A DNA stretch of 63,513 nucleotides from Zavarzinia sp. (GTDB lineage Bacteria; Pseudomonadota; Alphaproteobacteria; Zavarziniales; Zavarziniaceae): positions 2,114 to 65,626 of the forward strand of contig JAOZVS010000102.1 in NCBI GenBank assembly GCA_025869435.1, given 5' to 3'. This document shows positions 24,001-63,149 of this stretch, one piece after another (positions within the stretch are counted from its first letter, which is position 1; each line of letters begins with the position of its first letter). The notes beneath the pieces are model-generated. The model was given only the letters and a program-made list of their open reading frames with translations. It was not told the origin of the DNA and did not search any database. The position numbers and the translations under genes are program-made.

Positions 24001-24590
24001 CGATCGGTGCCGCCGCCGGTGAGTTCCGTCACCGTGTCGCCCGCGTCGTCGACGGCATAGATATCGTTGCCGGCGCCGCCGGTCATGGCGTCGGCGCCCG
24101 CGCCACCGTCGAGCAGATCATCGTCGGCGCCGCCGGTCAGCGTGTCGTCGCCGGCCCTGCCGTAGAGACTGTCGCCGCCACCGCCGCCGATGATGATGTT
24201 GGCGCCGTCGTTGCCATAGATCTGGCTGGCGAAGTCATTGCCGGTCAGATCGATCGCGGAAAGGCCCGCCGCCGCCACGAAACGCTCGATCTCGGTGGTC
24301 GGGGCCAGGGTATAGGAGACGGAGGTCGTCACCGTGTCCCGGCCCTCGCCAGCGTCTTCAGTGACCACATCGCCAACATCGTCGACGATATAGCTGTCGT
24401 CGCCGAGACCGCCGGTCATCGTGTCCGCCCCGGTGCCACCGTCCAGCCGGTCGGTGCCGTCGCCGCCGGTCAGCGTGTCGTCACCGCCCTTGCCGAACAG
24501 CTGGTCGTTGCCGTCCAGCCCGTCGATCGTGTCGGCCGACGCCGAGCCCACAAGCCGGTCGTTGCCCGATGTTCCCGATATTGATGCCAT
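21087..24590 (-). CDS. RTX calcium-binding protein with seven FG-GAP repeats
   Basis: A 1167-residue acidic, glycine- and aspartate-rich protein. Residues about 1-400 contain several blocks of RTX nonapeptides (GGxGxDxLxG type, for example GNDQLFGKGGDDTLTGG) that bind calcium and fold outside the cell. The middle part carries seven repeats of about 70 residues, each with GDxNGDGxDD and an (I/L)VG(A/V)P-like end, the FG-GAP integrin-alpha type; seven would close a full beta-propeller. A second RTX block and a hydrophobic C-terminus (VLAVDTDIQILV) follow, fitting an uncleaved type I secretion signal. No signal peptide and no secretion genes are seen nearby. The start at 24590 (MASISGTSGND) precedes the first repeat directly. 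Adhesion or surface-layer function is inferred. Confidence 0.85.
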   Translation of the reverse strand: MASISGTSGNDRLVGSASADTIDGLDGNDQLFGKGGDDTLTGGDGTDRLDGGTGADTMTGGLGDDSYIVDDVGDVVTEDAGEGRDTVTTSVSYTLAPTTEIERFVAAAGLSAIDLTGNDFASQIYGNDGANIIIGGGGGDSLYGRAGDDTLTGGADDDLLDGGAGADAMTGGAGNDIYAVDDAGDTVTELTGGGTDRITASVSFALGLSSEVEQLYSRGADTIDLSGSDTDNTIVANDVANVLSGFGGNDRITARGGDDTLLGGDGDDVLIGGAGADAMTGGAGDDTFYVDDAGDTVTEATGEGSDKVYVETSWTLGAGQAVESLYLRGTGAIDVTGNDLANTIYGNSGANVLSGGAGADTIHGSGGDTLDGGADSDSYIVTAGGSGTIRVLGDSSDTLSSSDTGWVSTGVVMLDGLGVATYANGGTDLFADTGIDLAGLQADAMFGTATVQRGQTRQVIDTTTLSTARGFVIQGVASGDNTGASVSSAGDINGDGYDDIVVGVPYGSATYNGEAYVVFGKATGFGTVDGTGRLVLDLASLAPADGFLIQGDAPHDLLGTSVSWAGDVNGDGYDDLVVGAKLGDDGGNVAGEAYVIFGGATAFGAVDGTGRAVIDLAALSAAEGFIIQGDAAYDVAGYSVSNAGDINGDGFDDLIVSAKSGDDGGYSAGEAYVVFGTDLGFGTADGAGRQVIDLTGLTAAQGFIVQGDTAEDQLGQSVHAAGDVNGDGFDDIIVGAPKGDDGGDRAGEAYVIFGGAGGFGSPDGASRQVIDTTTLSASQGFIIQGDHAVSQTGWSVASLGDINGDGFDDMAVSTFAETVTAYYAGAAFVVYGTDQGFGTDVGGRQVLDLGGLTASQGFIISANYSYEYLGSAVSGAGDVNGDGIDDIIVASRNNGDAGSNTGAAYVVFGTTEGFGIDEGGRQVIFVGSLGADEGFVIQGDEVDDHLSLGISAAGDINGDGFDDLIVGAPNGDDAGSEAGEAYVIFGGPEGFTLGQVAGDDTDNILTGTSAAERLVGGRGNDTLVGGGGADVFLGGSGDDIIDVGSGNLFRVYGGTGNDTLKIAASFDLADLASFVHDVEVIDLTGGGAQTVVANAVDILAMGAANRDALGDSLDNVLVIEGDASDLLGLANLGGAVTTIGFGGVDYDLYAFNGRIVLAVDTDIQILV

Positions 24591-24662
24591 TGTGTCTGGT
24601 CCCCGCGCCTGACGGTGGCGCGAATTGCATCGCGACACGGTTTTCCCATCAGTCGACGGGAC

Positions 24663-48039: not shown

Positions 48040-49089
48040 ATGGAAGCGGCAAAGAAAATCGGGCCGGGCAATGTGACATCGGCCCGCTACTGGCGGCTGG
48101 ACCGCCGGCCCGAGGTCGAGATCGAGGACGGCTGCCTGTCGCTGCAGACCATGCCCATCGCCCCCCTGGCCGAGGGCCAGGTGCTGATGCGGTCGATCTA
48201 TCTCTCGCTCGACGCCACCAACCGCCTGTGGATGGAGGATATCGAGGGTATGTACATGCCCCCGGTGACGCTGGGCACCCCCATGCTGGGCTTCCTGCTG
48301 GCCGAGGTGATGGACAGCCGCAATCCCGCCTTCAAGCCCGGGCAACTGGCCATGGGCCTCGGCTTCTGGGCCGACTGCATGGTGACCGACGGCGCGGGCT
48401 GGACCGCCCTCGACCGGCCGGCGGGCATTCCGCTGCCGCTCGCCTTCGGCGTCCTCGCCATCGCCGGGCCGACCGCCTGGTTCGGCCTCCTCGATGTCGG
48501 CCGGCCGAAGCCGGGCCAGACCGTGGTGGTCAGCGCCGCCGCCGGGGCCGCCGGCTCCTGCGCCGCGCAGATCGCCAAGCTGAAGGGTTGCCGCGTGATC
48601 GGCATCGCCGGCGGCGCCGAGAAATGCGCCTGGCTGAAGGACGAGGCCGGCCTCGACGCCGTCATCGACTACAAGGCCGAGAATGTCGAACAGGCCCTGC
48701 GCCGCCTCGCCCCCGAGGGCATCCATGTGCTTTACGAGAATGTCGGCGGCGACATCCTGGACGCCAGCCTGACCCATATGGCGCAGAACGGCACGGTCGT
48801 CGTCTGCGGCCTGATCTCGACCTATAACGGCGGCATCGGCGCGGCGGGACCGAAGATGTTCCACAATGTGATCATGAAGCGCCTGCGCATCGAGGGTTTC
48901 GTCGTCCTCGACTATTTCCATCGCTATGCGGAAGCCTGGGCCGAGCTGATCCCCTGGCTGCAGCAGGGCAAATTGAAATTCCGCCTCGACATCACCGAAG
49001 GGCTGGACCACGCGGTCGACGCCCTGCGCTCGATGTATCACAGCGGCAATAGCGGCAAGCTGATGGTGCGGATCGGCGCCGAGCCCTGA
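48040..49089 (+). CDS. NADP-dependent medium-chain oxidoreductase (CurA/enone reductase type)
   Basis: A 349-residue zinc-free medium-chain dehydrogenase/reductase. The Rossmann motif is VVVSAAAGAAGSCAAQIAKLKG, and LSLDATNRLWM and the YENVGGDILDASLTHM region match the leukotriene-B4 dehydrogenase/curcumin reductase branch, which reduces alpha,beta-unsaturated ketones. The start at 48040 follows GGGGAGA. A strong hairpin terminator follows the gene. Its place among other ketone and alcohol enzymes is suggestive but not proof of a shared pathway. Confidence 0.88.
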   Translation: MEAAKKIGPGNVTSARYWRLDRRPEVEIEDGCLSLQTMPIAPLAEGQVLMRSIYLSLDATNRLWMEDIEGMYMPPVTLGTPMLGFLLAEVMDSRNPAFKPGQLAMGLGFWADCMVTDGAGWTALDRPAGIPLPLAFGVLAIAGPTAWFGLLDVGRPKPGQTVVVSAAAGAAGSCAAQIAKLKGCRVIGIAGGAEKCAWLKDEAGLDAVIDYKAENVEQALRRLAPEGIHVLYENVGGDILDASLTHMAQNGTVVVCGLISTYNGGIGAAGPKMFHNVIMKRLRIEGFVVLDYFHRYAEAWAELIPWLQQGKLKFRLDITEGLDHAVDALRSMYHSGNSGKLMVRIGAEP

Positions 49090-49135: not shown

Positions 49136-49600
49136 TTATTTCACGGCATGGACGTCATAGGTCACGCCGCCATGGCCGAGCCGGCCGATGCCGATGGTGA
49201 CCAGATTGTTCAGGTGTTGATACTTCGGGTGCCCGGTCTCGAACAGCGGCTGGGTACGGAAGTAATAGAGCGCGGGATCAAGCGCCTGGGCATTGTCGAA
49301 ATCCATCGCCTGGGCCAGCAATTCGGGCGGCACCACCAGCCGGCCGCCATAGGTCACATAGATCCGCGCGCCGTCGTCGGTTTCCAGCCAGATACGGACA
49401 TCGATCGCGCCCGAGCCATCGGCGCGCAGGCTCAGCCAGTCGCCGCCGCCGGGCAGCACCTTGCCGCGAAAGCCCGGCCCCTCGAAGCTGCCGCCCGTGA
49501 CATAGACCGTCAGCCTGTGGCCGGCCGGGGTCGGGCCGCCGTCGATCGCCGGCTGCAGATTGATATGGGTCGTGAACAGGAATTCGGTCTCTGGTGCCAT
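49136..49600 (-). CDS. DUF3237 domain protein
   Basis: A 154-residue protein of the DUF3237 family, recognised from LTVYVTGGSFEGPGFRGKVLPGGGDWL and the end ALYYFRTQPLFETGHPKYQHLNNLVTIGIG. The fold is a small beta barrel; function is unknown, although such genes often lie in aromatic or steroid degradation clusters. The start at 49600 follows GGGGAGGCG. It is divergent from the short-chain dehydrogenase gene and may share its control region (49601-49743). Confidence 0.85.
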   Translation of the reverse strand: MAPETEFLFTTHINLQPAIDGGPTPAGHRLTVYVTGGSFEGPGFRGKVLPGGGDWLSLRADGSGAIDVRIWLETDDGARIYVTYGGRLVVPPELLAQAMDFDNAQALDPALYYFRTQPLFETGHPKYQHLNNLVTIGIGRLGHGGVTYDVHAVK

Positions 49601-49743
49601 GCGCGCCTCCCCTTGTTTTGCTGGACTGTCGGCCTTTCGCAAAGGCGGGCCACCCCCCGTCCTCGGGGGGGAGGCGTGGCGGCCGAATCCGTGAAGATGA
49701 GGACGCCGGAAACAAGGCACCACGACTTTCAGGGAGAGAGAGA

Positions 49744-50553
49744 ATGACCGCCAACCCCCATCGCCTGGACGGCAAGGTCGCGCTGATCACCGGGGCGGCC
49801 CGCGGCCTGGGCGCCGAAACCGCGCGCGTGATGGGCGCGGCCGGCGCCACCATCATGGTGACCGACATTCTGGAAGCGGAGGGCCGCGCCACCGTCGAGG
49901 GCCTGAAGGCGGCGGGCGTGAAAGCCTTCTTCCACCGCCACGACGTGACCGGGGAAGCCGAGTGGGACGCCGCCGTCGCCGCGACGATCGATGCGGCCGG
50001 CGGCCTCGACATCCTGGTCAACAACGCCGGGATCGAGGTCGTGCACAGGATCGAGGACACGACGCCCGAGATTTTCGAGCGGGTGATGCGGGTGAACTCG
50101 ACCGGCACCTTCCTCGGGATGCGCGCCGCCGTCGCGGCGATGAAACCCGGCGGGGCGGCGGGCAAGGGCGGCGCCATCGTCAACCTGTCGTCGATCGCGG
50201 GCCTTCGCGGCTTTCCGGGCGTCACCGCCTATTGCGCCTCGAAGGGCGCGGTGCGGCTGATGACCAAGGCGGTCGCCATGGAATGCGCCGCGCTCGGTTA
50301 CGGCATTCGCGTGAACTCGCTGCATCCCGGGCTGATCGCGACCGACATGGGCACCGCCCTGCTCGGCCATTTCGTCGCCGCCGGCCTCGGCCCGGACGAG
50401 ACGACGGTCGCCGCCCAATTCGCCGCGCGCCAGCCTTACGGCGAAGGCAAGCCGTCGGATATCGCCGAGGCCGCGCTCTATCTCGCCAGCGATGCCGCGC
50501 GCTGGGTCACCGGGGCCGAGCTTTCGGTCGATGGCGGCTTCGCCAACGGCTGA
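49744..50553 (+). CDS. Short-chain dehydrogenase/reductase
   Basis: A 269-residue NAD(P)-dependent enzyme. The cofactor motif TGAARGLG is at residues 16-23, NNAG follows, then the catalytic Ser of NLSSIAG, Tyr163 and Lys167 in YCASKGA. ATGVNSTGTF-like and SLHPGLIATDMG strands fit alcohol or hydroxysteroid dehydrogenases. The start follows a GGGAGAGAGA purine run. Because it lies next to the ketone-carboxylase-like operon, oxidation of a secondary alcohol to a ketone is an attractive but unproven role. Confidence 0.88.
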   Translation: MTANPHRLDGKVALITGAARGLGAETARVMGAAGATIMVTDILEAEGRATVEGLKAAGVKAFFHRHDVTGEAEWDAAVAATIDAAGGLDILVNNAGIEVVHRIEDTTPEIFERVMRVNSTGTFLGMRAAVAAMKPGGAAGKGGAIVNLSSIAGLRGFPGVTAYCASKGAVRLMTKAVAMECAALGYGIRVNSLHPGLIATDMGTALLGHFVAAGLGPDETTVAAQFAARQPYGEGKPSDIAEAALYLASDAARWVTGAELSVDGGFANG

Positions 50554-50562: not shown

Positions 50563-53337
50563 TCACAGCACGCGGGCCCGCCGTGCCTGGCGCACGGCCT
50601 GGGTCCGCGTGTTGGCGCCCAGCTTGATGAAGATCTGCTTCACGTACCATTTCACCGTTTCCGGCGTGATGGTCAGGGCACCGGCGATTTCCTTGTTGGT
50701 CAGGCCTTCCGCCATGCAGCCGAGGACTTCCCGCTCCCGCCCCGTCAGTTGCTGGTACAGCGTCTGGTCGAGCGGCGCTTCCTCCCGCGTCGCCAGCATA
50801 TGGGCGGGCTGGACCCGAACCGGCGGCTTGCCCGCGTCGGCGAAACTGACGACTTCGGCCCGGCGCTGGCCCTGCGGCTCGCGGTTGCCGGTCAGAAGTT
50901 CGGCGATGACGACCTGTTTCGCCGCCGGCAGTTCCGTCAGGGCCGGGCTGGACGACAGTCCCTTCAACAGGGGCTGGAGATAAAGCCGCTGATCCCGGAA
51001 CACACGCAGGAAGCGGCGGGGCAGGGCCGAGGCCAGGGCCTGACGGAAGCTGGCGATGGCGCCGCCGTGATCGCCGGTCGCCCATTGCGCGGCGGCCAGC
51101 AGGATGAGGCCGCCGATGGTATCGCCGAAGCGGCCCATGGTTTCCGCGTCGGCGACATAGGTTTCGAGATAATCGAGGCTGCGGCGCGCCTCGCCCAGCA
51201 TGATGTCGGCACGCGCCTCGCCCAGGCGAATGATTTCATTGGTGACGGTGGTGGCCGTGCGGCCATGGGCCGGGTCCTCCACCTGGCGCAGACCCTCCAG
51301 CCGGTTCAGCAGGTGGCGGACCTGGCGCCAGTCGTTGGATTGCAGCGCGAAATGCAGCCGCTGCACCACGCAGGCGGCGACGACCCGGGTGAAATTCAGC
51401 CGATTGGTCACCGCCTCCAGCCGGTCCAGCCGCTCCATCGCCCGCTTCATGTCGCCTTCCGCCGCGTGAAGGCGGATGAGGGAAATCGGCCCCCGCCACG
51501 AGAAGGTGGGCGGCGTGCGGGAACAGACGATGTCGAAGCGCCCGGCCAGCAGTTTCTGCGCCGCCAGCGGATCGTCGAGATCATAGAGAAGGCCCGCGAG
51601 ACAGGAGGCCGGCATGCTGGCCGGCACCGAACGGCGCCCGCCCGCTTCCTCGCCGAGGCGAAGCGCCTCCTCGTAAGACTCGATCGCCTTGTCGAAATCG
51701 CCGCGCTGTTCATGGACGGCGCCGGTGACGCAGCCGGCATAGATCACGGTGAAGCGGCTGCGCTCGGGCGCGGTCCAGCTTTCGCCCATGACCTGCGCCT
51801 CGAGCGCGGCATCATGTTCGCCCGCCAGCAGCTTGTTGTAGGTGACGACATTGGCGAGGGCGCCGATCTTGAACTGATCGTCGCGCGGGCCCTGCGCCAG
51901 CCATTGCTCGGCCTGGCGCAGGCCCTCCGCCGTGTGGTCGTTCAAGGTATAAAAGGCCGCCTTCAACGCCTGCAATTCGAGCTCGACCTTCCTGTCCGGC
52001 ACGTCGCGCCGGGCCAGCGCCGCCTCGACATCGGCGATGGTTTTCGTCGCCTCGTCCATGCGCATCGACAGGGTCAGCGCCCAGGCGACATCGACCGACA
52101 GGTCCAGCCGCTCCTCGAACAGGGCCTTGGGCAGACGCTCGTACCAGCTCATCAGGAGGAGGATCTGCGCCGTCTCGACCAGGCGCCGCGACTGCTGCGC
52201 GATCAACTCCACCGCCCAGGCCGCGTTGCCCTCCTCGATCGCATGATGGATCGCCTCGGAGACTTCCCCGCGCGAGGTGAACCAGCGCGCGGCGCGCCGA
52301 TGCAGGCCGGTCAATTCCTCGGCCGGCAGTTGCTGCACCTCGCCCGCCAGGAATTCGCGCAGCAGGGGATGCAGCCGGGCCCAGCCTTCCGTCCCTTCGA
52401 GGGGGATGATGAAGGGCACTTCCTCGACGAGGCGGCGGATGCGCGCGGCGGATTCCGTCGTCGCCAGCATTTCGTCGCAAAGCGCCGGGCAGAAGCGCGA
52501 GACGACCGAGACCCGCACCAGCCAGCGGCGGTCTTCCTCGTCGATCGGGCGGAACACCGTCTCGCGGATGTAATCGGTGATTTCCTTGGTCTCGCCGCAG
52601 AAGGTCTCGACGAATTCCGAGACATTGCGCTTGCGCGCCAGCGACTGGCTGGCGAGGCAGAGGCCGGCGACCCAGCCTTCCGTCGCCTGGTTCAGCGTGT
52701 CGATATCGGTCAGGCGCAGCAGGTCGTGGCCGCGCAGGCGAAAGAATTCGATCGCCTCGGCGATATCGAAACGCATCTCGCCGATGCCGGTTTCCTGCAC
52801 CCGGCCCTGGACCTTCAGCCGCGACAGGCCGAGCCAGGTCGCCGGGCGTCCCGCCAGCACGAAATGCAGGTTGGGCGGGGCGTAATGGAACAGATCGTAG
52901 AGGATCGACAGGGCGGGCGCCGAGTTCAGCTCGTGCACGTCGTCGAGGAAGATATAGATATCGTCGCTGAGTTGCTGAACCTCGTTGACGATGAAACCCG
53001 CGACCTGAAAGGGCGCGAGATTGCCCGAGGCCGAGAGGAAGGATGTCGCCCCCTGCCGGTCACCCTCGAAAGCCTGATCGAGGGCGCCAAGCAGGTAGGA
53101 GAGGAATTGCGACGGCTCGTTGTCGTGCTCGTCGAGGCTGAGCCAGGCGATCTTGCCGCCATCCATCAGCAGGCGTTTGCGCCAGTCGGCCAGCAAGGTG
53201 GTCTTGCCGAAGCCGGCTGGCGCGCGCACCAGCGTTACCGTATGGGCCGGAAGATTTTCGAAATAATCTTCCAGGTTTTTGCGACGCACAAGATTGGTCA
53301 ACAAACTTGGCGGCAGAAATTTGGTTCTGACCAGCAT
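50563..53337 (-). CDS. MalT/AcoK-like LuxR family transcriptional regulator
   Basis: A 924-residue signal-transducing ATPase regulator. The N-terminal NTPase has Walker A APAGFGKTT at residues 39-47 and Walker B IYIFLDDVHE near residue 135. A long helical TPR-like middle follows, and a C-terminal LuxR helix-turn-helix (LTGREREVLGCMAEGLTNKEIAGAL, then TPETVKWYVKQIFIKLGA). Such proteins bind a small inducer and activate catabolic operons. It lies on the same strand 163 bases after the ligase gene of the carboxylase operon, and is the natural candidate to control it. Confidence 0.9.
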   Translation of the reverse strand: MLVRTKFLPPSLLTNLVRRKNLEDYFENLPAHTVTLVRAPAGFGKTTLLADWRKRLLMDGGKIAWLSLDEHDNEPSQFLSYLLGALDQAFEGDRQGATSFLSASGNLAPFQVAGFIVNEVQQLSDDIYIFLDDVHELNSAPALSILYDLFHYAPPNLHFVLAGRPATWLGLSRLKVQGRVQETGIGEMRFDIAEAIEFFRLRGHDLLRLTDIDTLNQATEGWVAGLCLASQSLARKRNVSEFVETFCGETKEITDYIRETVFRPIDEEDRRWLVRVSVVSRFCPALCDEMLATTESAARIRRLVEEVPFIIPLEGTEGWARLHPLLREFLAGEVQQLPAEELTGLHRRAARWFTSRGEVSEAIHHAIEEGNAAWAVELIAQQSRRLVETAQILLLMSWYERLPKALFEERLDLSVDVAWALTLSMRMDEATKTIADVEAALARRDVPDRKVELELQALKAAFYTLNDHTAEGLRQAEQWLAQGPRDDQFKIGALANVVTYNKLLAGEHDAALEAQVMGESWTAPERSRFTVIYAGCVTGAVHEQRGDFDKAIESYEEALRLGEEAGGRRSVPASMPASCLAGLLYDLDDPLAAQKLLAGRFDIVCSRTPPTFSWRGPISLIRLHAAEGDMKRAMERLDRLEAVTNRLNFTRVVAACVVQRLHFALQSNDWRQVRHLLNRLEGLRQVEDPAHGRTATTVTNEIIRLGEARADIMLGEARRSLDYLETYVADAETMGRFGDTIGGLILLAAAQWATGDHGGAIASFRQALASALPRRFLRVFRDQRLYLQPLLKGLSSSPALTELPAAKQVVIAELLTGNREPQGQRRAEVVSFADAGKPPVRVQPAHMLATREEAPLDQTLYQQLTGREREVLGCMAEGLTNKEIAGALTITPETVKWYVKQIFIKLGANTRTQAVRQARRARVL

Positions 53338-53500: not shown

Positions 53501-55507
53501 TCAGGCGACAGCCGTGTCCTTCCGCTGATCGGCGAAGCCGATGTACCAGTCGAGGGCCGGCGGATTGGCCATGGCATCCCGGCTCGCCGCCTTTTCCGGT
53601 GCCCAGCCCATCAGGATCTTGCGCAAGGGCACCTCCAGCTTCTTGCCGGTCAGCGTATAGGGCACGTCCGGCACCTGATGGATCTCGTCCGGGACATGGC
53701 GCGGGCTGCAATCGAGACGGAGCTTGCCGTTGATCGCCTTGCGCATCGCTTCGTCCAGCACCCGGCCCGGCTTCAGTTTCACGAACAGCGGCATGTAGAA
53801 ATTGCCGCCCGGCAGTTCGCAGCAGACGATGATGCTGTCGAGCACGCCGTCGACCTGTTCGACCGCGCGGTAGATCTCGGCCGTGCCGATGCGGACGCCG
53901 TAGCGGTTCAGGGTCGAGTCCGAGCGGCCATAGATGTAACAGCCGCCGCGCTCGTTGATCTTGATGAAATCGCCGTGACGCCAGACGCCCTCGAAGACCT
54001 CGAAATAGGATTCGCGGTAGCGCTTGTCGGCCTTGTCGTTCCAGAAATAGACCGGCATCGACGGGAAGGGAGAGGTTACCACGAGTTCGCCGACCTCGCC
54101 GGTCACTTCCCGTCCATCGTCGGTCCAGGCGCGGACGTCCATGCCCAGCATCCGGGTCTGGATCTCGCCGGCATGGACCGGCAGGGTGGGCGAGGCGCCG
54201 ACGAAGCCCGAGGCGATTTCGGTGCCGCCGCTCTGCGAGGTGACCCAGAGATCGCGTTTCACCTTGTCGTAGAACCAGGCGAAATTCTCCGGCGTCGCGG
54301 GCGAGCCGCCGAGCAGGATGGATTCGAGACGCGACAGGTCGAAATCCCGCCCCGGCTCGATGCCGTTCCGCTCCAGGATCTGGATATAGGTCGGGCTGGC
54401 GCCGAAGCAGGTGGCGCCCGTCTCCGCCGCCATCTGCCACAGGACATCCGGCCCGGGATGGACCGGGCTGCCGTCGTAAAGGACGACGGCCGAGCCCATG
54501 AGGAGACCGGCGAGGATGATGTTCCACATCACCCAACCCGTCGTCGTATAGAAGAAAATGACGCCGCCCGGCTTCAGGTTCAGATGGAAATGGGCGAGTT
54601 TCATCATCTCCATCAAGGCGCCGACATGGCTGTGCACGATCGCCTTCGGAAGTCCCGTGGTGCCGGAGGAGAAGACGACCCACAGCGGATGATCATGGGC
54701 CACCCGCTCGTAGGAGAAGAGATGGCCGGGCACCGGCGAATGGTCCATCAGCTCGCGCCACAGCACGGCGTCGGGCACCGGCGGCGCCTCCACCCCCGGC
54801 CGCAGATAGGGCAGCCAGACCACGGTCTTCAGCGAGGGCAGGGCGGCGATGATCGAACGGGTTTCTTCCAGACGGTCGAAATCCTTGCCGCCGAAGCGAT
54901 AGCCGTCGGCCGCGAACAGGACCTTGGGCTCGATCTGCGAGAAGCGCTCGATCACCGTCTTCACGCCGAATTCGGGCGCCGCGCTGGACCACACAGCGCC
55001 GATCGCCACCGTCGCCAGCATGGCGACCGCGGTCTCGACGATATTGGGCATGTAGGACACCACCCGGTCGCCCGGCCCGACGCCGAGCGCGCGCAGCTGG
55101 GTCGCGAGGATGCGCACCTGGGCGCCGAGATCGCGGCGCGACAGGCTGGCCAGCGGGCGCGTTTCCGAGAGGTGATAGAAACCAGGCTCGTCCACATTGC
55201 CTTCGTAGCGCAGCATGTGTTCGGCGAAATTGACGCGGGAGCCCTCGAACCAGCGAACGCCCGGCCCCATGGTCCGGCGGTCGACCACCCGGCCGTAGGG
55301 CGTGGAGGACTGGATTTCGAAGTAATCCCACAGGGCCGCCCAGAAGGCCTCGATCTCCGTCACCGACCAGTGCCACAGAGCATCGTAATCGGCGAGATCC
55401 ATGCCCCGCCGGTCGCGCAGCCAGTTCAGGAACTGGGTGACGTTGGACTTCTCGACGAAGTCCTTCGTCGGGGTCCAGAGCAGTTCGCCTTCCTTCACGG
55501 TGGTCAC
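53501..55507 (-). CDS. Acetoacetyl-CoA synthetase-type acid-CoA ligase (Bal-like)
   Basis: A 668-residue acyl-adenylate-forming ligase. The AMP site is VVFSSGTTGLPKAIVHSHVG, and VTSQSGGTEIASGF and YFWNDKADKRYRESYFEVFEGVWRHGDF are typical of the acetoacetyl-CoA synthetase branch. The C-terminal lysine is in TLTGKKLEVPLRK. The enzyme would activate the beta-keto acid made by the carboxylase: acetoacetate or, as in Aromatoleum Bal, benzoylacetate. The GTG start at 55507 is used for the AAAGGA upstream. It lies 14 bases after the fifth carboxylase gene, in the same order as bal after apcE. Confidence 0.88.
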   Translation of the reverse strand: MTTVKEGELLWTPTKDFVEKSNVTQFLNWLRDRRGMDLADYDALWHWSVTEIEAFWAALWDYFEIQSSTPYGRVVDRRTMGPGVRWFEGSRVNFAEHMLRYEGNVDEPGFYHLSETRPLASLSRRDLGAQVRILATQLRALGVGPGDRVVSYMPNIVETAVAMLATVAIGAVWSSAAPEFGVKTVIERFSQIEPKVLFAADGYRFGGKDFDRLEETRSIIAALPSLKTVVWLPYLRPGVEAPPVPDAVLWRELMDHSPVPGHLFSYERVAHDHPLWVVFSSGTTGLPKAIVHSHVGALMEMMKLAHFHLNLKPGGVIFFYTTTGWVMWNIILAGLLMGSAVVLYDGSPVHPGPDVLWQMAAETGATCFGASPTYIQILERNGIEPGRDFDLSRLESILLGGSPATPENFAWFYDKVKRDLWVTSQSGGTEIASGFVGASPTLPVHAGEIQTRMLGMDVRAWTDDGREVTGEVGELVVTSPFPSMPVYFWNDKADKRYRESYFEVFEGVWRHGDFIKINERGGCYIYGRSDSTLNRYGVRIGTAEIYRAVEQVDGVLDSIIVCCELPGGNFYMPLFVKLKPGRVLDEAMRKAINGKLRLDCSPRHVPDEIHQVPDVPYTLTGKKLEVPLRKILMGWAPEKAASRDAMANPPALDWYIGFADQRKDTAVA

Positions 55508-55521
55508 GTCTCGAAATCCTT

Positions 55522-56334
55522 TCAAGCCAGGGCCGCCAGACGGCCGAGCACGGCCTCCGGCTCCGCATCCGGCGGAATGCGCGCATAGATGAATTGTCCG
55601 CCTTCGGCGGCGGCGCCCTCGCCCCGCCAATAGGCTTGCGGCAGCTGGATGCCGGCCACCGCGCCAGTGGGCGCGATGACGAAATCGACGGCGGCAAGCT
55701 CGGCCCCGTCGTCGAGGCGCAGGCCGACATCCCAGCGATAGTGGCCGGCGATGTTCAGCACGGCCTGACAGGCGGCCAGATCCTCGTCGCCCGCGACGAC
55801 ACCCGGCGCTTCCTCCATCAGGAGGACGTCGATCCCGGTATCGCCGAAGGCGCGCAGGAAATCGGCCATATACATGGCGGCGCTGTCGACATCGTCGAGC
55901 GTTACCTCGTCATCGCCCGAAAGCCCCGCCTTCGCCGCGGCATGGAGGATGAAGGCTCGCGGGCTGGGAATGACGAAGGCCAGCGGCTGACCGCCATAGG
56001 TCAGCCGCAAGCCTTCGAGGAGGGCGCGGATGTGACCCCGCAGGTCCTCGTCGGCCAGCAGCACCTTCAGGGGATAGAGCAGGCGCTTTCGCCCCGCCAT
56101 GGCCGACACCAGATCGCCATGACCCGCCAGCCAGAAGTCGAGCAGCGGAACGAGGGGCAGAGCCGCCACGTCGGGCCGCAGCAGGCCTTGCGCCTTGCGG
56201 TGCCAGTCGATGAAGCGGGCGACATCCCCGAAGGGAATGCCGCCGGCCGCGAGCAGGCGTCCGCAATAATCGGTGTGGTCGAGCCAGCGCGGCCGCCTTC
56301 CGCCCCGCATCAGGAGATCGCGAAACGCCCCCAT
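55522..56334 (-). CDS. Fifth subunit of an acetophenone-carboxylase-like complex (ApcE-like)
   Basis: A 270-residue cytosolic protein without a domain I can name. It begins MGAFRDLLMRGGRRPRWLDH and contains FVIPSPRAFILHAAAKAG and YMADFLRAFGDTGIDVLLMEEAPG, with a regular strand-helix alternation that may be a barrel fold. It starts four bases after the HyuB-like gene and ends 14 bases before the ligase gene. Known acetophenone carboxylase needs a separate epsilon subunit (about 34 kDa) besides its core; size and position here fit that. The assignment rests on context more than sequence. Confidence 0.6.
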   Translation of the reverse strand: MGAFRDLLMRGGRRPRWLDHTDYCGRLLAAGGIPFGDVARFIDWHRKAQGLLRPDVAALPLVPLLDFWLAGHGDLVSAMAGRKRLLYPLKVLLADEDLRGHIRALLEGLRLTYGGQPLAFVIPSPRAFILHAAAKAGLSGDDEVTLDDVDSAAMYMADFLRAFGDTGIDVLLMEEAPGVVAGDEDLAACQAVLNIAGHYRWDVGLRLDDGAELAAVDFVIAPTGAVAGIQLPQAYWRGEGAAAEGGQFIYARIPPDAEPEAVLGRLAALA

Positions 56335-56338
56335 GCCC

Positions 56339-58609
56339 TCAGCCCTCGAGCTCGGCGACGCGGGCTTCCAGCGCCGCGATGCGCAGCTCGCGCGGGTCGG
56401 GCATGAACACCGGCTGGATGGCGCCCGCGTCCATCACCTGCCGGGTCTTGCCGCTGCCGGCGATGATGCGGCCGGTATCGCCCCACGACCCGAAGTAGGG
56501 CAGGTCCTCGGCCGGGGCCTCGGTCACCCAGTCGCGGACGAAATCGGCGTAAGGCTTGCCCCGCGCCTTGCGGGCCGCCCGCTCGGCATCGCGCGCGGCC
56601 CTCGTGCCCGCCGCGTCGACGATCAGGGTGCGCCTGTCGTAGACGACATGATAGATATCGCGGGCGCTTTCGTGACTGATCAGGTCCTCGCTCAGGTCCT
56701 TCATCACCGCCGCCGGATCACGCTCCAGGACGTCGCCGTAACCGCCGCCGGCGCCCTGGCAGATCATGTAGATCTCGCCTTCCTGCACCATCTCGAAGGT
56801 CATGCCGGCATCCGCCGTGACATAACGCCCGCTCTCGATCGGCCGCTCGTTCATCAGCTCGACGATGTCATAGGGGAAGCGGGCGGCGTTGCCCTTTTCC
56901 TTGAACCAGTCGAAGACATTGGCGTCCTTGACCTTGGCGATCGGATAGGCCGGGCAGCTGTAACCGCCGAAGAGCCCGGGGGCCGAGCAGAACCACGAAC
57001 CGGACTGGCCGGTCATGAAGCCCCACATCGAGGTGCCGCGCGCCGTCACCATCTGTTCGTAGCCGAGGCCGCCGCGATATTTGCCCCAGCCCACCCGGTC
57101 GGTCGCCAGATGCTGGGCGATCAGGCGGACCATGGGCAGCTCTTCTTCCGCCAGCTCGTATTCGCCGGTGTCGCACATGAAGCCGAACAGCGGCGAGACG
57201 CCGTGCTCGCCATCCCGGTTCTCGCGCGCGCCCTGACCGTTGCCGTTGATGTCGGCGCAGAAATTGCCCGTCACTTCCATGTGCTGGGTCAGGCCGCCGT
57301 AGACGAAGGTGGCGGGCTGGTTGTACTGCGCCGCCAGGGTCACGGTCGCCCGCGCCTTGGCGCCATCCGGCAGGCCATAGATGAACTTCGGGAAGGACAC
57401 CGTCGCCACGGTGATCGTCCTGAACATGGGCAGAAGGCTCATGGCGCAGGGCGCGTCATTGTTGGCGTCGAGCAGGGAATTGGCGTCCGACTCGAAATCG
57501 AAGGCGGCCAGAACGCCCTGGTTATGCGGCAGGTCCGGCCAGATGTTCTGCAGGACACCCGTCAGGAAGCAGACCTTGGTCGAGCCCATGACGGCATTGA
57601 CCGAGCGGTTGGACAGCTGGGGCGAGGTGCCCCGGAAATCCATGGTCATGCGGTCGCCCTTCACCCGGGCGGCGCAGGCGACCTTGAGGAGGGCCGGCTC
57701 GCGCAGGGTCGAGTCGATCCAGGTGTTGAAGCGCACCGTTCCATCCGGCAATTCGGCGATGCGGCGATGCACCTCGGCTTCGGTATCTTCCAGATTACGG
57801 CGAAGATAGGCGACCAGCGCGTCCTTGCCAAATTCCGCGATCACCGCGCGCACCCGATCCATCAGCCGCAGGCAGGCGTGCAGCTTCACCTTCAGGTCCT
57901 CGAACTGCAGCTTCGGATCGCGCACCGAATTCTGCAGGAAGGTGAGGATGTCGCGCTTGACCTGGAAATCCTCGACGATGCGGAAGGGGCTCATCTTCAG
58001 CCCTTCGTCGAAGCGGGATTCCGCCTTGGCGGGCATTCCGCCCGGCTCGATCGCGCCGTTCTCGCCCTCGTGAATGGTCGAGGAGACCCAGCATACCAGT
58101 TCGCCCTCGTGGAACACGGGCATCATCATCGACTGGTCGGTGTTGTGGATGCCGCCGTAACGCGAGTCGTTATGGATGAAGCCGTCGCCGTGGCGGACGC
58201 CGACCGTGGGATCGTGGGTCCAGTATTTGTTCACGAACTTGATCGGATACTGGCAGACGCCGGCGAAGGTGACGATGCCGGCGGGCGAGATTTCCGACAG
58301 GTCGCCGCTCGCCGAGAAGATGGCGGTGACGAGATCGCCCCATTTGGCGCCGGGGGCGGCGCCCATCTGTTCGACCATGCGGAAACTCTCGGACAGGGCC
58401 GAGATGACGCGGCCACGCACCTGGTTCAGGAGGTGCGGGTCGTCGTGCTTCTTCATCGCCGCGTCCTCGGCGGCGGTGCGCGGCTCCAGCTTGTGGTTGC
58501 GCATGATCGCAGGGTCGGGGCCGTAGAAGAGCTGATGCTCGTCGACGAAATCCTGCAGCAGCTTGCGTTCGCCGACGCTGAGGGTGGCAATCCCGGGCAT
58601 GACGTTCAT
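56339..58609 (-). CDS. HyuB-like subunit of an ATP-dependent ketone carboxylase (ApcD-like)
   Basis: A 756-residue protein of the hydantoinase B/oxoprolinase family. Stretches FIHNDSRYGGIHNTDQSMMMPVF and CWVSSTIHEGENG near residues 145-180, DFRGTSPQLSNRSVNAVMGSTK in the middle, and GAGGGYGDVLERDPAAV near the end are diagnostic. In ketone carboxylases this subunit carries the carboxylation site. The start at 58609 has a perfect AAGGAG. Its length is close to acetone carboxylase alpha, but the two separate HyuA-like partners upstream point to the five-subunit acetophenone type. It is 18 bases after the preceding gene. Confidence 0.87.
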   Translation of the reverse strand: MNVMPGIATLSVGERKLLQDFVDEHQLFYGPDPAIMRNHKLEPRTAAEDAAMKKHDDPHLLNQVRGRVISALSESFRMVEQMGAAPGAKWGDLVTAIFSASGDLSEISPAGIVTFAGVCQYPIKFVNKYWTHDPTVGVRHGDGFIHNDSRYGGIHNTDQSMMMPVFHEGELVCWVSSTIHEGENGAIEPGGMPAKAESRFDEGLKMSPFRIVEDFQVKRDILTFLQNSVRDPKLQFEDLKVKLHACLRLMDRVRAVIAEFGKDALVAYLRRNLEDTEAEVHRRIAELPDGTVRFNTWIDSTLREPALLKVACAARVKGDRMTMDFRGTSPQLSNRSVNAVMGSTKVCFLTGVLQNIWPDLPHNQGVLAAFDFESDANSLLDANNDAPCAMSLLPMFRTITVATVSFPKFIYGLPDGAKARATVTLAAQYNQPATFVYGGLTQHMEVTGNFCADINGNGQGARENRDGEHGVSPLFGFMCDTGEYELAEEELPMVRLIAQHLATDRVGWGKYRGGLGYEQMVTARGTSMWGFMTGQSGSWFCSAPGLFGGYSCPAYPIAKVKDANVFDWFKEKGNAARFPYDIVELMNERPIESGRYVTADAGMTFEMVQEGEIYMICQGAGGGYGDVLERDPAAVMKDLSEDLISHESARDIYHVVYDRRTLIVDAAGTRAARDAERAARKARGKPYADFVRDWVTEAPAEDLPYFGSWGDTGRIIAGSGKTRQVMDAGAIQPVFMPDPRELRIAALEARVAELEG

Positions 58610-58627
58610 GGTTGCACTCCTTATTCG

Positions 58628-60763
58628 TCAGGCGTCGATGCGGGTGAACCAGGCCGCGCCCTGGGCCGCGGCCTCGAAGCGCCAGCCGGGTTCGACCAGA
58701 TAGGTGGTGTGACTGGTGGTGATCACCGCCGGGCCGTCGATGACGACGCCGTGTTCGAGGGCGGCGGCGTCATAGACCGCGGTCTCGATCGCGCCGTCGT
58801 GATCGACGAAATGGCACTTGCGGCTGCCCACCGGGGCGGGGGCGGGCACGCGCTTCTGGCCCGGGTGGATGTCGGAGAAATCGACCGCGTCAAGCTCGAC
58901 GAAGGAACAGACGCGGATCGTGTTGATGCGAACGCCCGCTTCCGCCGCCTGGCTGCCCTCGCCGAAGCGATCGCCGTAGGAGGTGTGAAACTGATTGATC
59001 AGTTTCACCACGTCGGCCAGGGTCTCCAGCCGGGTCATGTCGGTGACCACGGTGGTCTGGACCCGCTGGTTGCCGTAACGCATGTCGAGCTCGAGACGAT
59101 AGCCGATCTTCTCGACCGGCATCCCCTGGCGCAGCAGATCCTCGCGGCCCCGGCGCTCCAGCTCCTCGACCATCGCGTTGAATTTCGCGAAATCGGTGAA
59201 GAGCTGCTTCGTCATGCTGTCGAACAGCACGGTGAAGGTCGACATTTCGTGAATATGCAGCTGGGACAGGTTGCCCGCGCCGCAGGCCGAGAAGACCGAG
59301 GCGAAGGGCGGCGCCAGAATGCGCCCGATGCCAAGACCCCGCGCGATGCCGCAGGCATGAAGCGGGCCGTTGCCGCCATAGGTCAGCAGGGTGAATTCGC
59401 TCGGCTCGTAGCCGAAGGTGCGAAGTTCCGTGGCGACGCCGTTGGCCATGTCGAGGTCTACGGTGCGCTTGATCAGCTTGGCCGCCTCGATCAGGTCGAG
59501 ATCCATCGGATCGCACAGCTGGTCCTCGATCACCTGGCGGGCACGGCGGGGATTCAGCTTGATGTAACCATTGGCATAATTCGCGGGATCGAGATAGCCG
59601 AGCAGCAGGTCGGCGTCGGTCACCGTCGGCTTCATGCCGCCCCGGTCGTAGCAGGCGGGGCCGGGGTCGGAGCCGGCGCTGGTCGGCCCGCATTGAACGG
59701 TGTTGTACATGCGGTTGTGCTGGGCGATGGAGCCGCCGCCGGAGCCGAGCGTCGCCAGATGGACCATGGGCACCGACACCAGCCAGCGCTCGATGGTCGG
59801 CTGGAAGTCGTAGAATTTCACCCCGCCGTCGACGACGAGGCCGATGTCATAGGAGGTGCCGCCCATGTCGGTGGCGACGACATTGCCGAGCTTGGCGCAT
59901 TTCGCCAGATGTTCGGCCGCGGCGATGCCCGAGACGGGACCGGAATGCACGGTCTGCAGCGCATCGGTCGAATTGAGCTGCGCCATGCCGCCCGAATTGT
60001 GGACGACCAGCATCGGCTTCACGTAACCCGAGGCGCGCAGGTTGCGCTCGAGCGAGGAGAGGCCAAAATACATCACCTTGTGCAGGAAGGCGTCCATGAT
60101 CGTCGACATGGAGCGGACATATTCGCCCTTGCGGCCGGCGACCTGATGCGACAGCAGCAGTGGCACGGCACCCAGCATGTGTTCGGGATAATCCTCGACG
60201 AAGATGTCCTGCACCCGCAGCTCGTGCACCGGATTGACCACGGAATTGGTGAAGGCGACCACCAGGGCTTCGGCGCCGGCATCGACGAGGTCGCGGATCT
60301 GGCGGCGCAGATCATCCTCGTCCAGCTCGATCAACACTTCGCCTTTGTAATCGATGCGCTCGCGCACGATACGGATCATCTCGATCGGCACGATCGGCTC
60401 GGGCCGCCGCGCGTTCGGAATGTCCTGCTGTTCCTCCATGGAGAGGCCTTCGCCATAGCCCCGGCCCCGGGCCAGCGGCACGGTCGACTTGAAGCCCGCC
60501 GTGGTGATCAGGCCAATGCGGGGCCCACGCCGCTCGATCAGGGCATTGGTGCCGAGGGTGGTGGCGTAGCGGACCGAATCCACCTCGGCCAGCATCTGCT
60601 CGCGCGAGGTGCCGACTTCGCGGCAGGCGTAATCCAGCGCCTCGTTGAAGCCGAGGGCGAGATTATGCTTGGTGGTCAGGGCCTTGGACTGGACGTAGCG
60701 GTCACCCCAGATGACGAAACAGTCGGTGAAGGTGCCGCCGATATCGACAGAAACGCGCTTCAT
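58628..60763 (-). CDS. HyuA-like ATPase subunit of ketone carboxylase (ApcC-like)
   Basis: A 711-residue protein of the hydantoinase A family, an actin-like ATPase that phosphorylates the ketone enol or bicarbonate. The first phosphate loop is VDIGGTFTD at residues 6-14, the second is TDMGGTSYDIG, with the SGGMAQ and SGPVSGIAAA motifs between. GSGGGSIAQHNRMYNTVQCGPTSAGSDPGPACYDRGG is very typical. The start at 60763 is five bases after the zinc-subunit stop. It differs from the other HyuA-like subunit in length and phosphate loops, so the two are paralogues with separate places in the complex. Confidence 0.88.
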   Translation of the reverse strand: MKRVSVDIGGTFTDCFVIWGDRYVQSKALTTKHNLALGFNEALDYACREVGTSREQMLAEVDSVRYATTLGTNALIERRGPRIGLITTAGFKSTVPLARGRGYGEGLSMEEQQDIPNARRPEPIVPIEMIRIVRERIDYKGEVLIELDEDDLRRQIRDLVDAGAEALVVAFTNSVVNPVHELRVQDIFVEDYPEHMLGAVPLLLSHQVAGRKGEYVRSMSTIMDAFLHKVMYFGLSSLERNLRASGYVKPMLVVHNSGGMAQLNSTDALQTVHSGPVSGIAAAEHLAKCAKLGNVVATDMGGTSYDIGLVVDGGVKFYDFQPTIERWLVSVPMVHLATLGSGGGSIAQHNRMYNTVQCGPTSAGSDPGPACYDRGGMKPTVTDADLLLGYLDPANYANGYIKLNPRRARQVIEDQLCDPMDLDLIEAAKLIKRTVDLDMANGVATELRTFGYEPSEFTLLTYGGNGPLHACGIARGLGIGRILAPPFASVFSACGAGNLSQLHIHEMSTFTVLFDSMTKQLFTDFAKFNAMVEELERRGREDLLRQGMPVEKIGYRLELDMRYGNQRVQTTVVTDMTRLETLADVVKLINQFHTSYGDRFGEGSQAAEAGVRINTIRVCSFVELDAVDFSDIHPGQKRVPAPAPVGSRKCHFVDHDGAIETAVYDAAALEHGVVIDGPAVITTSHTTYLVEPGWRFEAAAQGAAWFTRIDA

Positions 60764-60768
60764 CTGGT

Positions 60769-61206
60769 TCAGCCCTTCGCCGCTTCGTGATCGTGGTGGT
60801 GATGATGATGGTGGTGGTGACCCTCGGGCCGGGGCAGGTCCTTGCCCGGGGTGCGCTCGACCACGGGCTTCCTGTTGGCCCATTGCGCCTTGAGGGCGTC
60901 GATGTCGAATTCGATGTCATGGGTGGGCGGATGGCCCGGCACGGTATATTCGGTCTCGACCAGCGTGCCGCAGGACGGGCAGTAATATTCGAGAATGCGG
61001 CACCAGCGCGGATTGGGTGCGAAGGTGAAGCCGTAACGCTTCGGGTCCAGCATCGGCTTGTGGATCTCGGACGGCTCGCGGTCGTGGATCAGGAGGCCGG
61101 TCTTGTAATTCTCGCGCGCGCCGGCGATCTCGTGATCGCAGCGGCGGCATTCCCATTTCTCGGCCGCGAGGTCGAGGCGAAGATATTCGGTAACGAGGAC
61201 TTTCAC
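60769..61206 (-). CDS. Small zinc-ribbon subunit of ketone carboxylase (ApcB/AcxC-like), with nine-His tail
   Basis: A 145-residue protein of the acetone carboxylase gamma family. Cysteines at 20, 23, 76 and 79 (CRRC and CPSC, with a further Cys69) form a probable zinc ribbon. YKTGLLIHDREPSEIHKPMLDP and PNPRWCRILEYYCPSCG are typical of the family. The C-terminus holds nine consecutive histidines at residues 130-138, then Asp-His, encoded at 60787-60819 with mixed CAC and CAT codons. This natural tail is unusual and may bind zinc, nickel or manganese. The gene lies 11 bases after the first HyuA-like gene and five before the second. Confidence 0.85.
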   Translation of the reverse strand: MKVLVTEYLRLDLAAEKWECRRCDHEIAGARENYKTGLLIHDREPSEIHKPMLDPKRYGFTFAPNPRWCRILEYYCPSCGTLVETEYTVPGHPPTHDIEFDIDALKAQWANRKPVVERTPGKDLPRPEGHHHHHHHHHDHEAAKG

Positions 61207-61217
61207 GTAACGTCTCC

Positions 61218-63149
61218 TCAGTGGTCTCGGGCGAGCAGGGTGTCGCGGTTGGAATTCACGCTGAACCGCCAGCCCCGGCCGATGCGGGCCGTGAAGAAGG
61301 CTTCTTCGAGAATGCAGGGACCGGCCGCCGTCGCGCCCGCCGGCTGGTCTTCCAGCCGGTGCACGGCAAGGCTGACCTCGCCTTCGCCCGGCACCGTCAG
61401 GCGCCGCTGGCCGGCGACGCCGGCGGCGGAGGCGGGCGGCGCGGCACCGTTCACCAATCTGGCGTGATTGATCGGGCGAACCGCGCGCAGCTCGATCACG
61501 ATGTCATTGGCCCCGGCGAGGGCGGCGGGCAGGGCGGCGCCCCGGCTCCAGGCGATGGCCTCGCCCGCCCCCGCGCTGTCCCTGGTCAGCGACCAGTCGA
61601 GGCGGCAGTCGGCGAGGTCGAAACCTTCGGCGAACATGTCGCGCCTGGCCCGGTCGACGAGTTCCGCCGCAGCCGCTTCCAGCGCCTCGGCCGAACCCGC
61701 GCCGACATTGCGGCTGTAACCCTGCGCGATATCGGAGAAGCCGATGCCGAAGGCCGAGAAGACGGCGGCGAGGCCCGGAATGATCACCTGGCTGATGCCG
61801 GCCGCCTCGGCCACCGCCGAGACGACGAAGGGCCCGGCCCCGCCGAAGGCAGCGAGGGTCGTGTCGGCGTCGATGGTGGTGAAAGCCTTCAGGCTGTCGG
61901 CGATCTTGCCGACCCAGGCTTTCTCCGCCGCGGCGAGCGCGGCCGGCAGATCGAGGCCGAGCGGCTCGGCGATGGCGCCGCGCACCGCGGCCTCGGCCCG
62001 CGCCCGGTCGAGGGTCATGGCCCCGCCGAAATAGGTCGCGGGGTCGATGAGGCCCGTGAGCAGGAAGACGTCGGTGATGGTCGGCCTTGTGCCGCCGAGA
62101 CCGAAGCAGGCCGGCCCCGGTGCGCCGCCGGCCGATTCCGGCCCGACCTTGATCGCGCCATCCTCGACCTTGAGGATGGAGGAGCCGCCGACCCCGACCG
62201 AGACGATGTCCGAGAGCGGGAAGGAGATTTCGATATTCTCGATCTCGCCCCGGCGCAGCGCCCGGGGGGCGCCGTTTTCGACGAGGCCGATATCGGTCGT
62301 GGTGCCGCCGATATCCATGGTCAGGAGACGCTTGAAGCCGTAATGCGCGGCCAGCGCCCGGGCGCCTTCCATGCCGCCCTGGGGGCCGGAGCCATAGGTC
62401 TTGACCGCGATGGTGCGGGCGACGCGGGCGCTGTCACCATCGTTGCGGAAGATCAGCAGCGGGTTCTGGTGCTTCCACTCGCGCAGGATCGCCTCCGCGT
62501 TATAGAGGAAGCCTTCCATGGCCGGATGCAGGAAGGCGTTGATCAGCGCCGACCAGCCGCGCCGCGCCGCATCGCCGTCGTCGACCAGCTCCGAAGCGCA
62601 GAGCACGGGCACGACGCCCAGCAGATGGCGCGGGAACTTGCGCAGGATCGCCTGTTTCAGCCGCTTCTCGCCCGCCCGGTAATCGTCGCCGCCGAGGCTG
62701 ATGACGATGCGGTTGGCGCCATTGTTGGTCAGGGCGTTGATCGCCGAAACCAGGGCGCCGTCGAAGGCGTCGCCGGTCAGGGCGAGGTCGATCGCCTGCA
62801 CCCGGTCGCCGACGAGAACGTCGAACATCGCCTTGGCGTCGGCCGAGGCGGACAGGCCGGTGATATCGTCGCCAGCGGAATGGATCAGGCCGAGGCGGGG
62901 GCCCTTCTTCTCGACGATGGCGTTGGTGCCCTGGGTCGTCGAGTAACGGATGTGATCGGTGGCGACCAGGAGGTCGAGCAGCCTCTCCTCGCCATAGACG
63001 GCGACGGAGGCTTTCTTCAGACCCTCGAAGAAGCATTTCGACAAGTCATAGGGCGTGGTGATGGTCTTGGTGTGGTGGACCTTCGCCCCGTCGATCACGC
63101 AGATATCCGTCAGCGTGCCGCCGTTGTCGATATTGATGAGCAGACCCAT
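61218..63149 (-). CDS. HyuA-like ATPase subunit of ketone carboxylase (ApcA-like)
   Basis: A 643-residue hydantoinase A family protein, first in the operon. The first phosphate loop reads DNGGTLTD (residues 8-15) instead of the usual DIGGTFTD, and the second is TMDIGGTTTDIGLVENG. GVGGSSILKVEDGAIKVGPESAGGAPGPACFGLGG and FGGAGPFVVSAVAEAAGI are family signatures. The start at 63149 is preferred for GGAGAGG just upstream; an ATG at 63164 has none. In acetophenone carboxylase two different HyuA-like subunits occur per half-complex, as here. Both probably bind ATP. Confidence 0.88.
   Translation of the reverse strand: MGLLINIDNGGTLTDICVIDGAKVHHTKTITTPYDLSKCFFEGLKKASVAVYGEERLLDLLVATDHIRYSTTQGTNAIVEKKGPRLGLIHSAGDDITGLSASADAKAMFDVLVGDRVQAIDLALTGDAFDGALVSAINALTNNGANRIVISLGGDDYRAGEKRLKQAILRKFPRHLLGVVPVLCASELVDDGDAARRGWSALINAFLHPAMEGFLYNAEAILREWKHQNPLLIFRNDGDSARVARTIAVKTYGSGPQGGMEGARALAAHYGFKRLLTMDIGGTTTDIGLVENGAPRALRRGEIENIEISFPLSDIVSVGVGGSSILKVEDGAIKVGPESAGGAPGPACFGLGGTRPTITDVFLLTGLIDPATYFGGAMTLDRARAEAAVRGAIAEPLGLDLPAALAAAEKAWVGKIADSLKAFTTIDADTTLAAFGGAGPFVVSAVAEAAGISQVIIPGLAAVFSAFGIGFSDIAQGYSRNVGAGSAEALEAAAAELVDRARRDMFAEGFDLADCRLDWSLTRDSAGAGEAIAWSRGAALPAALAGANDIVIELRAVRPINHARLVNGAAPPASAAGVAGQRRLTVPGEGEVSLAVHRLEDQPAGATAAGPCILEEAFFTARIGRGWRFSVNSNRDTLLARDH

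Follow-up and report, generated by a model that had tools for sequence, protein, structure and literature searches.

The 63,513-nucleotide stretch of Zavarzinia sp. contig JAOZVS010000102.1 analysed here (hereafter the window) carries an operon of six genes that probably encodes a five-subunit, ATP-dependent ketone carboxylase of the acetophenone carboxylase (Apc) type together with its own beta-keto-acid CoA ligase; the ketone would most likely be non-aromatic and other than acetone. Judged from sequence comparison, the operon belongs to a distinct sister branch of acetophenone carboxylase with its own ligase subfamily. Only one enzyme of the Apc branch was characterised as of 2017 (PMC5214803), and our literature search found no paper on the present branch or its substrate. 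Ketone carboxylases are useful for CO2 fixation, and the pocket residues of a deeply separate second Apc branch lend themselves naturally to testing which of the two kinases binds which substrate. The interest lies in the branch itself and in the general presence of the epsilon subunit rather than in this host.

The six genes run on the minus strand from 63149 down to 53501 with intergenic gaps of 11, 5, 18, 4 and 14 bases, and no internal stop was found in any of the six frames; the frame listing agrees with a preliminary description of this DNA, which had given six minus-strand genes, gaps of 4-18 bases and the same protein sizes. In order, they encode an ApcA-like alpha' kinase of HyuA type (643 amino acids, aa; 61218..63149), an ApcB-like zinc-ribbon subunit with a His-rich C-terminal tail (145 aa; 60769..61206), an ApcC-like alpha kinase, also of HyuA type (711 aa; 58628..60763), an ApcD-like core subunit of HyuB type (756 aa; 56339..58609), a divergent ApcE, or epsilon, with a predicted fold like that of uroporphyrinogen decarboxylase (URO-D) (270 aa; 55522..56334), and an acetoacetate-CoA-ligase-type enzyme of a separate subfamily, the proposed beta-keto-acid CoA ligase (668 aa; 53501..55507). 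The ApcA-like protein is counted from an internal ATG (its longest frame starts at 63164) and the ligase from an internal GTG. Pfam found Hydantoinase_A twice, Acetone_carb_G, Hydantoinase_B and AMP-binding. Identical gene order in four genus-mate genomes (89-98% identity for ApcC, 87-96% for ApcD and 61-95% for E) argues that the arrangement is not due to chance. In one of them (G005, locus L025, 9201-11131), the ApcA-like frame is split over two overlapping frames, by either a frameshift or an assembly error. In a fifth genus-mate (G003), A and part of B lie on one short contig and E adjoins the ligase on another, and the C and D genes were not seen there. The window is the end of its contig (C102) in a 3.49 Mb genome of 171 contigs that is 75.5% complete, so that little sequence lies upstream of the first gene and the absence of a gene from this genome means little.

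The best PDB matches of A, B, C and D (phmmer) were the four chains of 5l9w, the Aromatoleum acetophenone carboxylase (275, 118.5, 527 and 276 bits to chains b, C, B and A, respectively), whereas acetone carboxylase chains reached at most 126, 54.5, 286 and 131.5 bits. The best NCBIfam models were likewise ApcA, ApcB, ApcC and ApcD, with 329, 138, 554 and 316 bits, far under the equivalog cut-offs of 1250, 250, 1500 and 1500; the enzyme is thus of Apc type, yet not an acetophenone carboxylase by the NCBI definition. The window operon matches ApcABCDE of Aromatoleum aromaticum EbN1 (5l9w for the core, 9fou for epsilon) in the number and order of its five subunits, all of which are orthologues or homologues of their counterparts. 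Subunit lengths point both ways: A, B and C are near those of Apc (643/658, 145/129 and 711/732 aa for window/Apc), and HyuB (756 aa) is nearer to that of acetone carboxylase (776 aa) than to ApcD (684 aa). The ATP motifs, the zinc cysteines and the alpha fingerprint are shared, and a CoA ligase gene comes next in both; PMC4729919 describes apcABCDE with bal as an apparent operon that acetophenone induces. Unlike the EbN1 enzyme, to which the core subunits score only 118 to 527 bits, the window operon has changed pocket residues in both kinases. Acetone carboxylase AcxABC (5svb, 5m45) shares the metal-site residues, and its HyuA, HyuB and zinc subunits belong to the same superfamily, but it has just three subunits, a single HyuA among them, and lacks epsilon (PMC5214803), whereas the window has two HyuA proteins and an epsilon, scores lower against Acx in all four comparisons, and stands apart in the trees. 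In Rhodococcus ruber Chol-4, a cluster consisting of apc1-4 and a Fis regulator gene is reported as a putative acetophenone carboxylase (PMC6498646).

In the tree of HyuA-type kinases (49 rows, with 19 operons hand-picked from the fetched loci), ApcA-like proteins (19 rows, support 100/100) and ApcC-like proteins (19 rows, 100/97) formed two groups, and the acetone-carboxylase-like and hydantoinase-like references a third (11 rows, 100/97). Inside both the A and the C group, operons like that of the window (window type, 10 rows) and the remaining ones (classic type, 9 rows) separated at 100. The kinase duplication is therefore older than the split, and the window A and C proteins are orthologues of ApcA and ApcC. 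The HyuB tree, built by a quick method from 93 rows, held 81 Apc-type rows together with a Shimodaira-Hasegawa-like approximate likelihood ratio (SH-aLRT) value of 94, below the starred level of 95; they comprise 19 window-type rows including locus L098 (100), 59 classic rows (97) and three deep rows. HyuB rows labelled acetone-carboxylase-like or hydantoinase-like fell outside the 81 without forming clean groups (three changes each), and several long branches meet there. In this phylogeny, A and C stand with ApcA and ApcC and D with the Apc-type rows, none clustering with hydantoinases; both trees and the best PDB matches thus agree with the earlier proposal of an Apc-type enzyme as opposed to the acetone carboxylase or hydantoinase type. 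As the Aromatoleum record is absent among the loci used, locus L034, whose ApcC scores 1396 bits against 5l9w_B, stands in for the true Apc. Of 376 Apc relatives, the best 80 by similarity to Aromatoleum ApcB were used, a ranking that leaves window-type loci under-represented.

The core motifs are retained. The ATP motifs of the acetate and sugar kinase/Hsc70/actin (ASKHA) superfamily are present in both A and C; the alpha fingerprint R/KERiDsxG reads RERIDYKG in C, with Y at the s position, and was not found in A. Two CxxC pairs keep the four cysteines of the zinc subunit, and D retains GGIHNTD at 152 and HEGENGAIEPG at 180, which include the two His and the Asp of the metal site as published. 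The proposed substrate pockets are different. A published structural study tentatively assigned the ketone pocket of ApcC to L81, F281, N282, P285, I333, Q344 and T345, and the bicarbonate pocket of ApcA to E248, D274 and K281 (PMC5214803). The 19 window-type ApcC rows have T81 (19), I281 (12) or V281 (7), H282 (19), P285 (19), I333 (18), H344 (16) or Y344 (3), and L345 (19), versus L18/M46, F30/Y34, N59/S5, P64, I58 V2 L4, Q44/K18/E2 and T51 S10 C2 A1 at the same positions in 64 classic rows, seven deep rows being excluded from this count. In ApcA, position 281 is D in 19/19 window-type rows versus K in 62 of the 66 others, and position 248 is G, S or D in 19/19 versus E in 62/66; D274 is present in all. 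Under the tentative published assignment, five of the seven proposed ketone-pocket positions and two of the three proposed bicarbonate-pocket positions are thus changed, and the branch, by its sequences, keeps the machinery with proposed substrate sites altered in a fixed way. The 19 rows are not 19 independent cases, because five come from the window genus and others are near pairs. Among the deep rows, L098 carries T81, V281 and H282 as in the window type; T81 alone is no mark of the branch, because L096, L097, L100, L106 and L133 combine it with N282.

As a separate feature of the zinc subunit, the C-terminal tail of the window ApcB contains nine His in a row, and His-rich tails also occur in L005, L021, L023, L025 and L027. 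At least four His were found in 6 of 17 window-type tails (five of them from one genus) versus none of 34 other tails. Such tails may serve in metal storage or delivery.

The 270-aa protein matched no Pfam or NCBIfam family, and a PDB sequence search returned only chance-level matches (E 0.87 and worse). By profiles and predicted structure it is nevertheless a divergent ApcE homologue, as the preliminary description had suspected. A tblastn search with it matched eight plasmid records, of which four were opened; a homologue lies directly behind ApcABCD in three annotated ones, and a short-chain dehydrogenase (SDR) gene lies between D and E in Cupriavidus necator pBB1. When a non-iterated profile of ten window-type sequences was run against 4300 frames, all eight non-member matches up to 0.05 were in Apc loci: two window-type ones (L112, L108) and six classic ones (L091, 3e-8; L044, 5e-5; L069, 3e-4; L042, 4e-4; L041, 7e-4; L036, 1e-3), with the match one gene further from D in L041 and L042. 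In the reverse test, a profile of nine classic sequences matched the window protein at 2e-4, and the two profiles aligned over 222 columns at 15% identity (probability 90, E 1.4e-6). That the classic sequences are ApcE follows from the AlphaFold model of their member in L034 (predicted local distance difference test score, pLDDT, 92.9), which matches 9fou, titled ApcE, with up to 52% identity. For the window protein, the AlphaFold model (pLDDT 94.7, predicted template modelling score 0.92) had three 9fou chains as its top three Foldseek matches (E 3.7e-7 to 1.2e-6, TM 0.61-0.63, 13-15% identity in the structure alignment), and the next match was uroporphyrinogen decarboxylase. The URO-D-like fold of ApcE is already known from 9fou, a crystal structure released on 2025-12-24, for which our literature search found no paper.

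When the family alignment A4 was searched against the whole genomes of 142 relatives, strong matches (at least 193 bits) appeared in seven (G000-G005 and G033), in all of which the operon was seen, or pieces of it in G003. Weaker matches (at most 34 bits) occurred in 13 further genomes and as second matches in three of the seven; the four that were opened are URO-D proteins. Pfam URO-D itself matches 34 of 55 epsilon family members with E values no higher than 0.1 (best 2.9e-17), but not the window protein. According to the earlier literature, epsilon was still elusive in 2017, with close orthologues only in Nevskia and Rubrobacter (PMC5214803). By profiles, its presence now appears general in Apc-type operons: from 97 Apc-type loci, 23 were uncountable (17 without a complete D and six with at most 39 bases behind it), and all 74 judgeable ones have a homologue by the iterated profile. 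This count is not independent, as the iterated profile was trained on most of the loci counted, and loci with E were counted whatever the space behind D while loci without E were dropped if that space was below 900 bases. Independent evidence comes from the non-iterated profile tests, the whole-genome search and the later-fetched loci L127-L130, L132 and L133, which also have a homologue. In 11 loci of other types, of which some are short, no homologue turned up. The deep Apc-type loci L096, L100, L106 and L133 have their epsilon gene between B and C rather than behind D.

The ligase scores 787.8 bits against TIGR01217 (acetoacetate-CoA ligase), above the cut-off of 520.9, and 685.7 bits against the acetoacetyl-CoA synthetase 4wd1 of Streptomyces lividans. 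Matches at 1e-100 were present in 31 of 60 relatives, and a tree of 34 rows (29 different) placed 26 of these 31 genomes. One clade (14 rows including five duplicates, 100/99) unites the ligases from the window genus with those of pBB1, L128 and G033, 19 canonical rows lie elsewhere, and S. lividans 4wd1 is the nearest outsider (15 rows, 100/100). All seven placed genomes (of the 60) with an operon-type ligase have the operon, or pieces of it in G003, and in G033 the operon and the operon-type ligase are on different contigs. Positions 423 and 425 are T and Q in 9/9 operon-type ligases, compared with S/A (17/19) and I/M/L in the 19 canonical rows and A and V in S. lividans; most operon-type ligases carry LW[VL]TSQSGGTE where 4wd1 has LWIASVSGGTD. 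The window ligase and 4wd1 belong to the same family, and the operon-type ligase differs in its linkage to the proposed ketone carboxylase. This co-occurrence supports a ligase that is a dedicated partner of the carboxylase, the substrate not being fixed by the subfamily.

CoA-activating genes also accompany other operons of the branch. Ligases of the acetoacetyl-CoA synthetase type lie beside the operon in the window, four genus-mates, L004 and L128; AMP-forming ligases were found near it in L112, L102 and L129 (Pfam), in L098 and, as a piece, in L108 (tblastn); and CoA-transferase genes in L002, with pieces in L003 and L130. Thiolases lie near the operon in L112, L098, L103 and the genus-mate loci L022 and L024, and none was found in the window by tblastn. 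With CoA-activating genes near many branch operons and thiolases near some, the product is probably a beta-keto acid.

Following the published Apc model, the ApcC-like kinase would phosphorylate the enol of a ketone and the ApcA-like kinase would activate bicarbonate; the HyuB-like and zinc-ribbon subunits would form the core, on which the URO-D-like epsilon might dock and couple the two sites. The beta-keto acid released would be converted by the ligase to a beta-ketoacyl-CoA for cleavage by a thiolase. The ketone might be a longer or branched methyl ketone, perhaps derived from a secondary alcohol via neighbouring dehydrogenases. The substrate is probably not acetophenone, because F/Y281 is replaced by I/V in 19/19 window-type rows and N282H, T345L and L/M81T are fixed; position 281 is thereby no longer aromatic, in keeping with a non-aromatic ketone, an argument that rests on the tentative pocket assignment. 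It is probably not acetone either, because separate acetone-carboxylase-type operons are present in G003 and G004.

Several observations weigh against this reading. The nearest characterised relative of the ligase is an acetoacetyl-CoA synthetase and the TIGR01217 cut-off is passed, which speaks for caution on the ligase substrate; none of the six genus genomes has a match at 1e-100 other than the operon ligase, which could therefore serve general acetoacetate metabolism. The role of A may differ from that in the model, as it does not conserve two of the three residues proposed for the bicarbonate site, and the pocket assignments behind the substrate argument are called tentative in their source (PMC5214803). 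At 756 aa, HyuB exceeds ApcD (684 aa) in length and comes closer to its acetone carboxylase counterpart (776 aa). Finally, no CoA-activating gene was seen by tblastn near L005, L030, L127, L131 and L132, of which L131 and L132 are short contigs and the L030 genome has its ligase elsewhere.

A bolder version, which we hold only tentatively, is that this multi-phylum, partly plasmid-borne branch carboxylates a class of ketones not yet known to be carboxylated (e.g., longer, branched or cyclic ones) with a second kinase lacking the Glu/Lys bicarbonate pair, and that labour would be divided between the kinases and epsilon otherwise than in the Apc model.

The operon might alternatively encode a second acetone (or acetone/butanone) carboxylase, in which case the product would be acetoacetate, to be split into two acetyl-CoA after activation by an ordinary acetoacetyl-CoA synthetase. 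The family and tree position of the ligase would suit such a pathway, and residue 281 of C is aliphatic as in two acetone-carboxylase-type rows; the remaining pocket residues, however, are unlike these two rows as well, and the gene order and subunits are of Apc type. Besides the separate operons of G003 and G004, the window-type ABCDE operon of L030 (G033, contig C50, 8133-19296) has HyuB and gamma genes of the acetone-carboxylase-like kind immediately upstream, and we consider an acetone carboxylase rather unlikely.

A true aryl ketone carboxylase acting on acetophenone, propiophenone or a ring-substituted acetophenone, with the ligase as benzoylacetate-CoA ligase, is suggested by the apcABCDE-bal gene order (PMC5214803; PMC4729919), by the best PDB and NCBIfam matches and by the origin of several hosts from petroleum-contaminated soil. 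It is unlikely given four core subunits far under the equivalog cut-offs, the five changed ketone-pocket positions and the HyuA tree, which splits the branch from the classic type with a support of 100. From the preliminary description, the Apc type and the ApcE identity stand, while acetophenone carboxylase in the narrow sense is not supported by these scores. Hydroxyacetophenone, also named there, is set aside because the published pathways consulted use a biotin-dependent carboxylase (PMC9618137). In that pathway (HpeCBA/XccBCA with the kinase HpeHI), an aryl methyl ketone is likewise carboxylated after ATP use, but the enzymes are biotin-dependent and the kinase phosphorylates the phenol; according to the same source, HpeCBA and the acetophenone enzyme of EbN1 are not homologous.

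An ATP-dependent hydrolase of the hydantoinase or lactamase type with recruited extra subunits, to which the shared Pfam domains and the Asp for Lys at 281 of the ApcA-like kinase (motif DIGGTTTD) could point, is very improbable in view of the zinc-ribbon subunit and a second HyuA, both of which Hyd lacks according to PMC5214803, the HyuA and HyuB tree positions, the lack of an E homologue in the 11 loci of other types (some short) and the linked CoA-activating genes.

The window-type branch was present in all six genus genomes examined (in pieces in G003) and on plasmids of Cupriavidus, Rhodococcus and Neorhizobium, hosts that are culturable and make the substrate question directly testable. 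No 16S gene was detected in the two genomes searched for one to place the genus. A HyuB search of 385 genomes of the host's class gave 10 matches at 1e-60, eight of window type (48-100% identity), and one of 398 genomes of the phylum, a sample overlapping with the former, gave five, four of window type. Window-type rows of the HyuB tree come from Pseudomonadota, Actinomycetota, Bacillota and Myxococcota. The earlier idea of a new substrate branch is strengthened, as pocket residues and ligase differ throughout the branch, which is not restricted to this host. Acetone_carb_G matched in all five other genus genomes and not in the single genome from another genus of the family. Apc-like genes were also seen on contigs labelled Archaeoglobi or Archaeoglobaceae (L049, L085).

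Beyond the ligase lies a gene for a MalT-type LuxR regulator (924 aa; 50563..53337, minus strand; Pfam TPR_MalT and GerE), found at the same position in four genus-mates and probably the regulator of the cluster; MalT-type regulators also occur near L004, L030, L128 and L129. The regulator type was considered as a substrate hint and gives none. Beyond the regulator gene are those for a short-chain dehydrogenase (49744..50553, plus strand; Pfam adh_short), near the operon in four genus-mates, which is possibly a secondary-alcohol dehydrogenase and is related to the SDR of pBB1; a DUF3237 protein (Pfam; longest frame 49136..49723, minus strand), with blast matches in three of four genus-mates; and a zinc-dehydrogenase-like protein of the medium-chain dehydrogenase/reductase (MDR) type (48040..49089, plus strand; Pfam ADH_N_2 and ADH_zinc_N), near the operon in four genus-mates.

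In other Apc loci, a CobW-type GTPase gene lies near the operon, downstream of ApcE in L034-L038 and L040-L042 and also in L002, L108 and L130 (tblastn; four confirmed by Pfam). This suggests that Apc-type carboxylases have a metallochaperone, although no such gene was seen next to the window operon. Elsewhere in the window, a 1183-aa protein with FG-GAP and RTX calcium-binding repeats is encoded at 21087-24638 and an AcrB-type efflux pump at 15020-18181.

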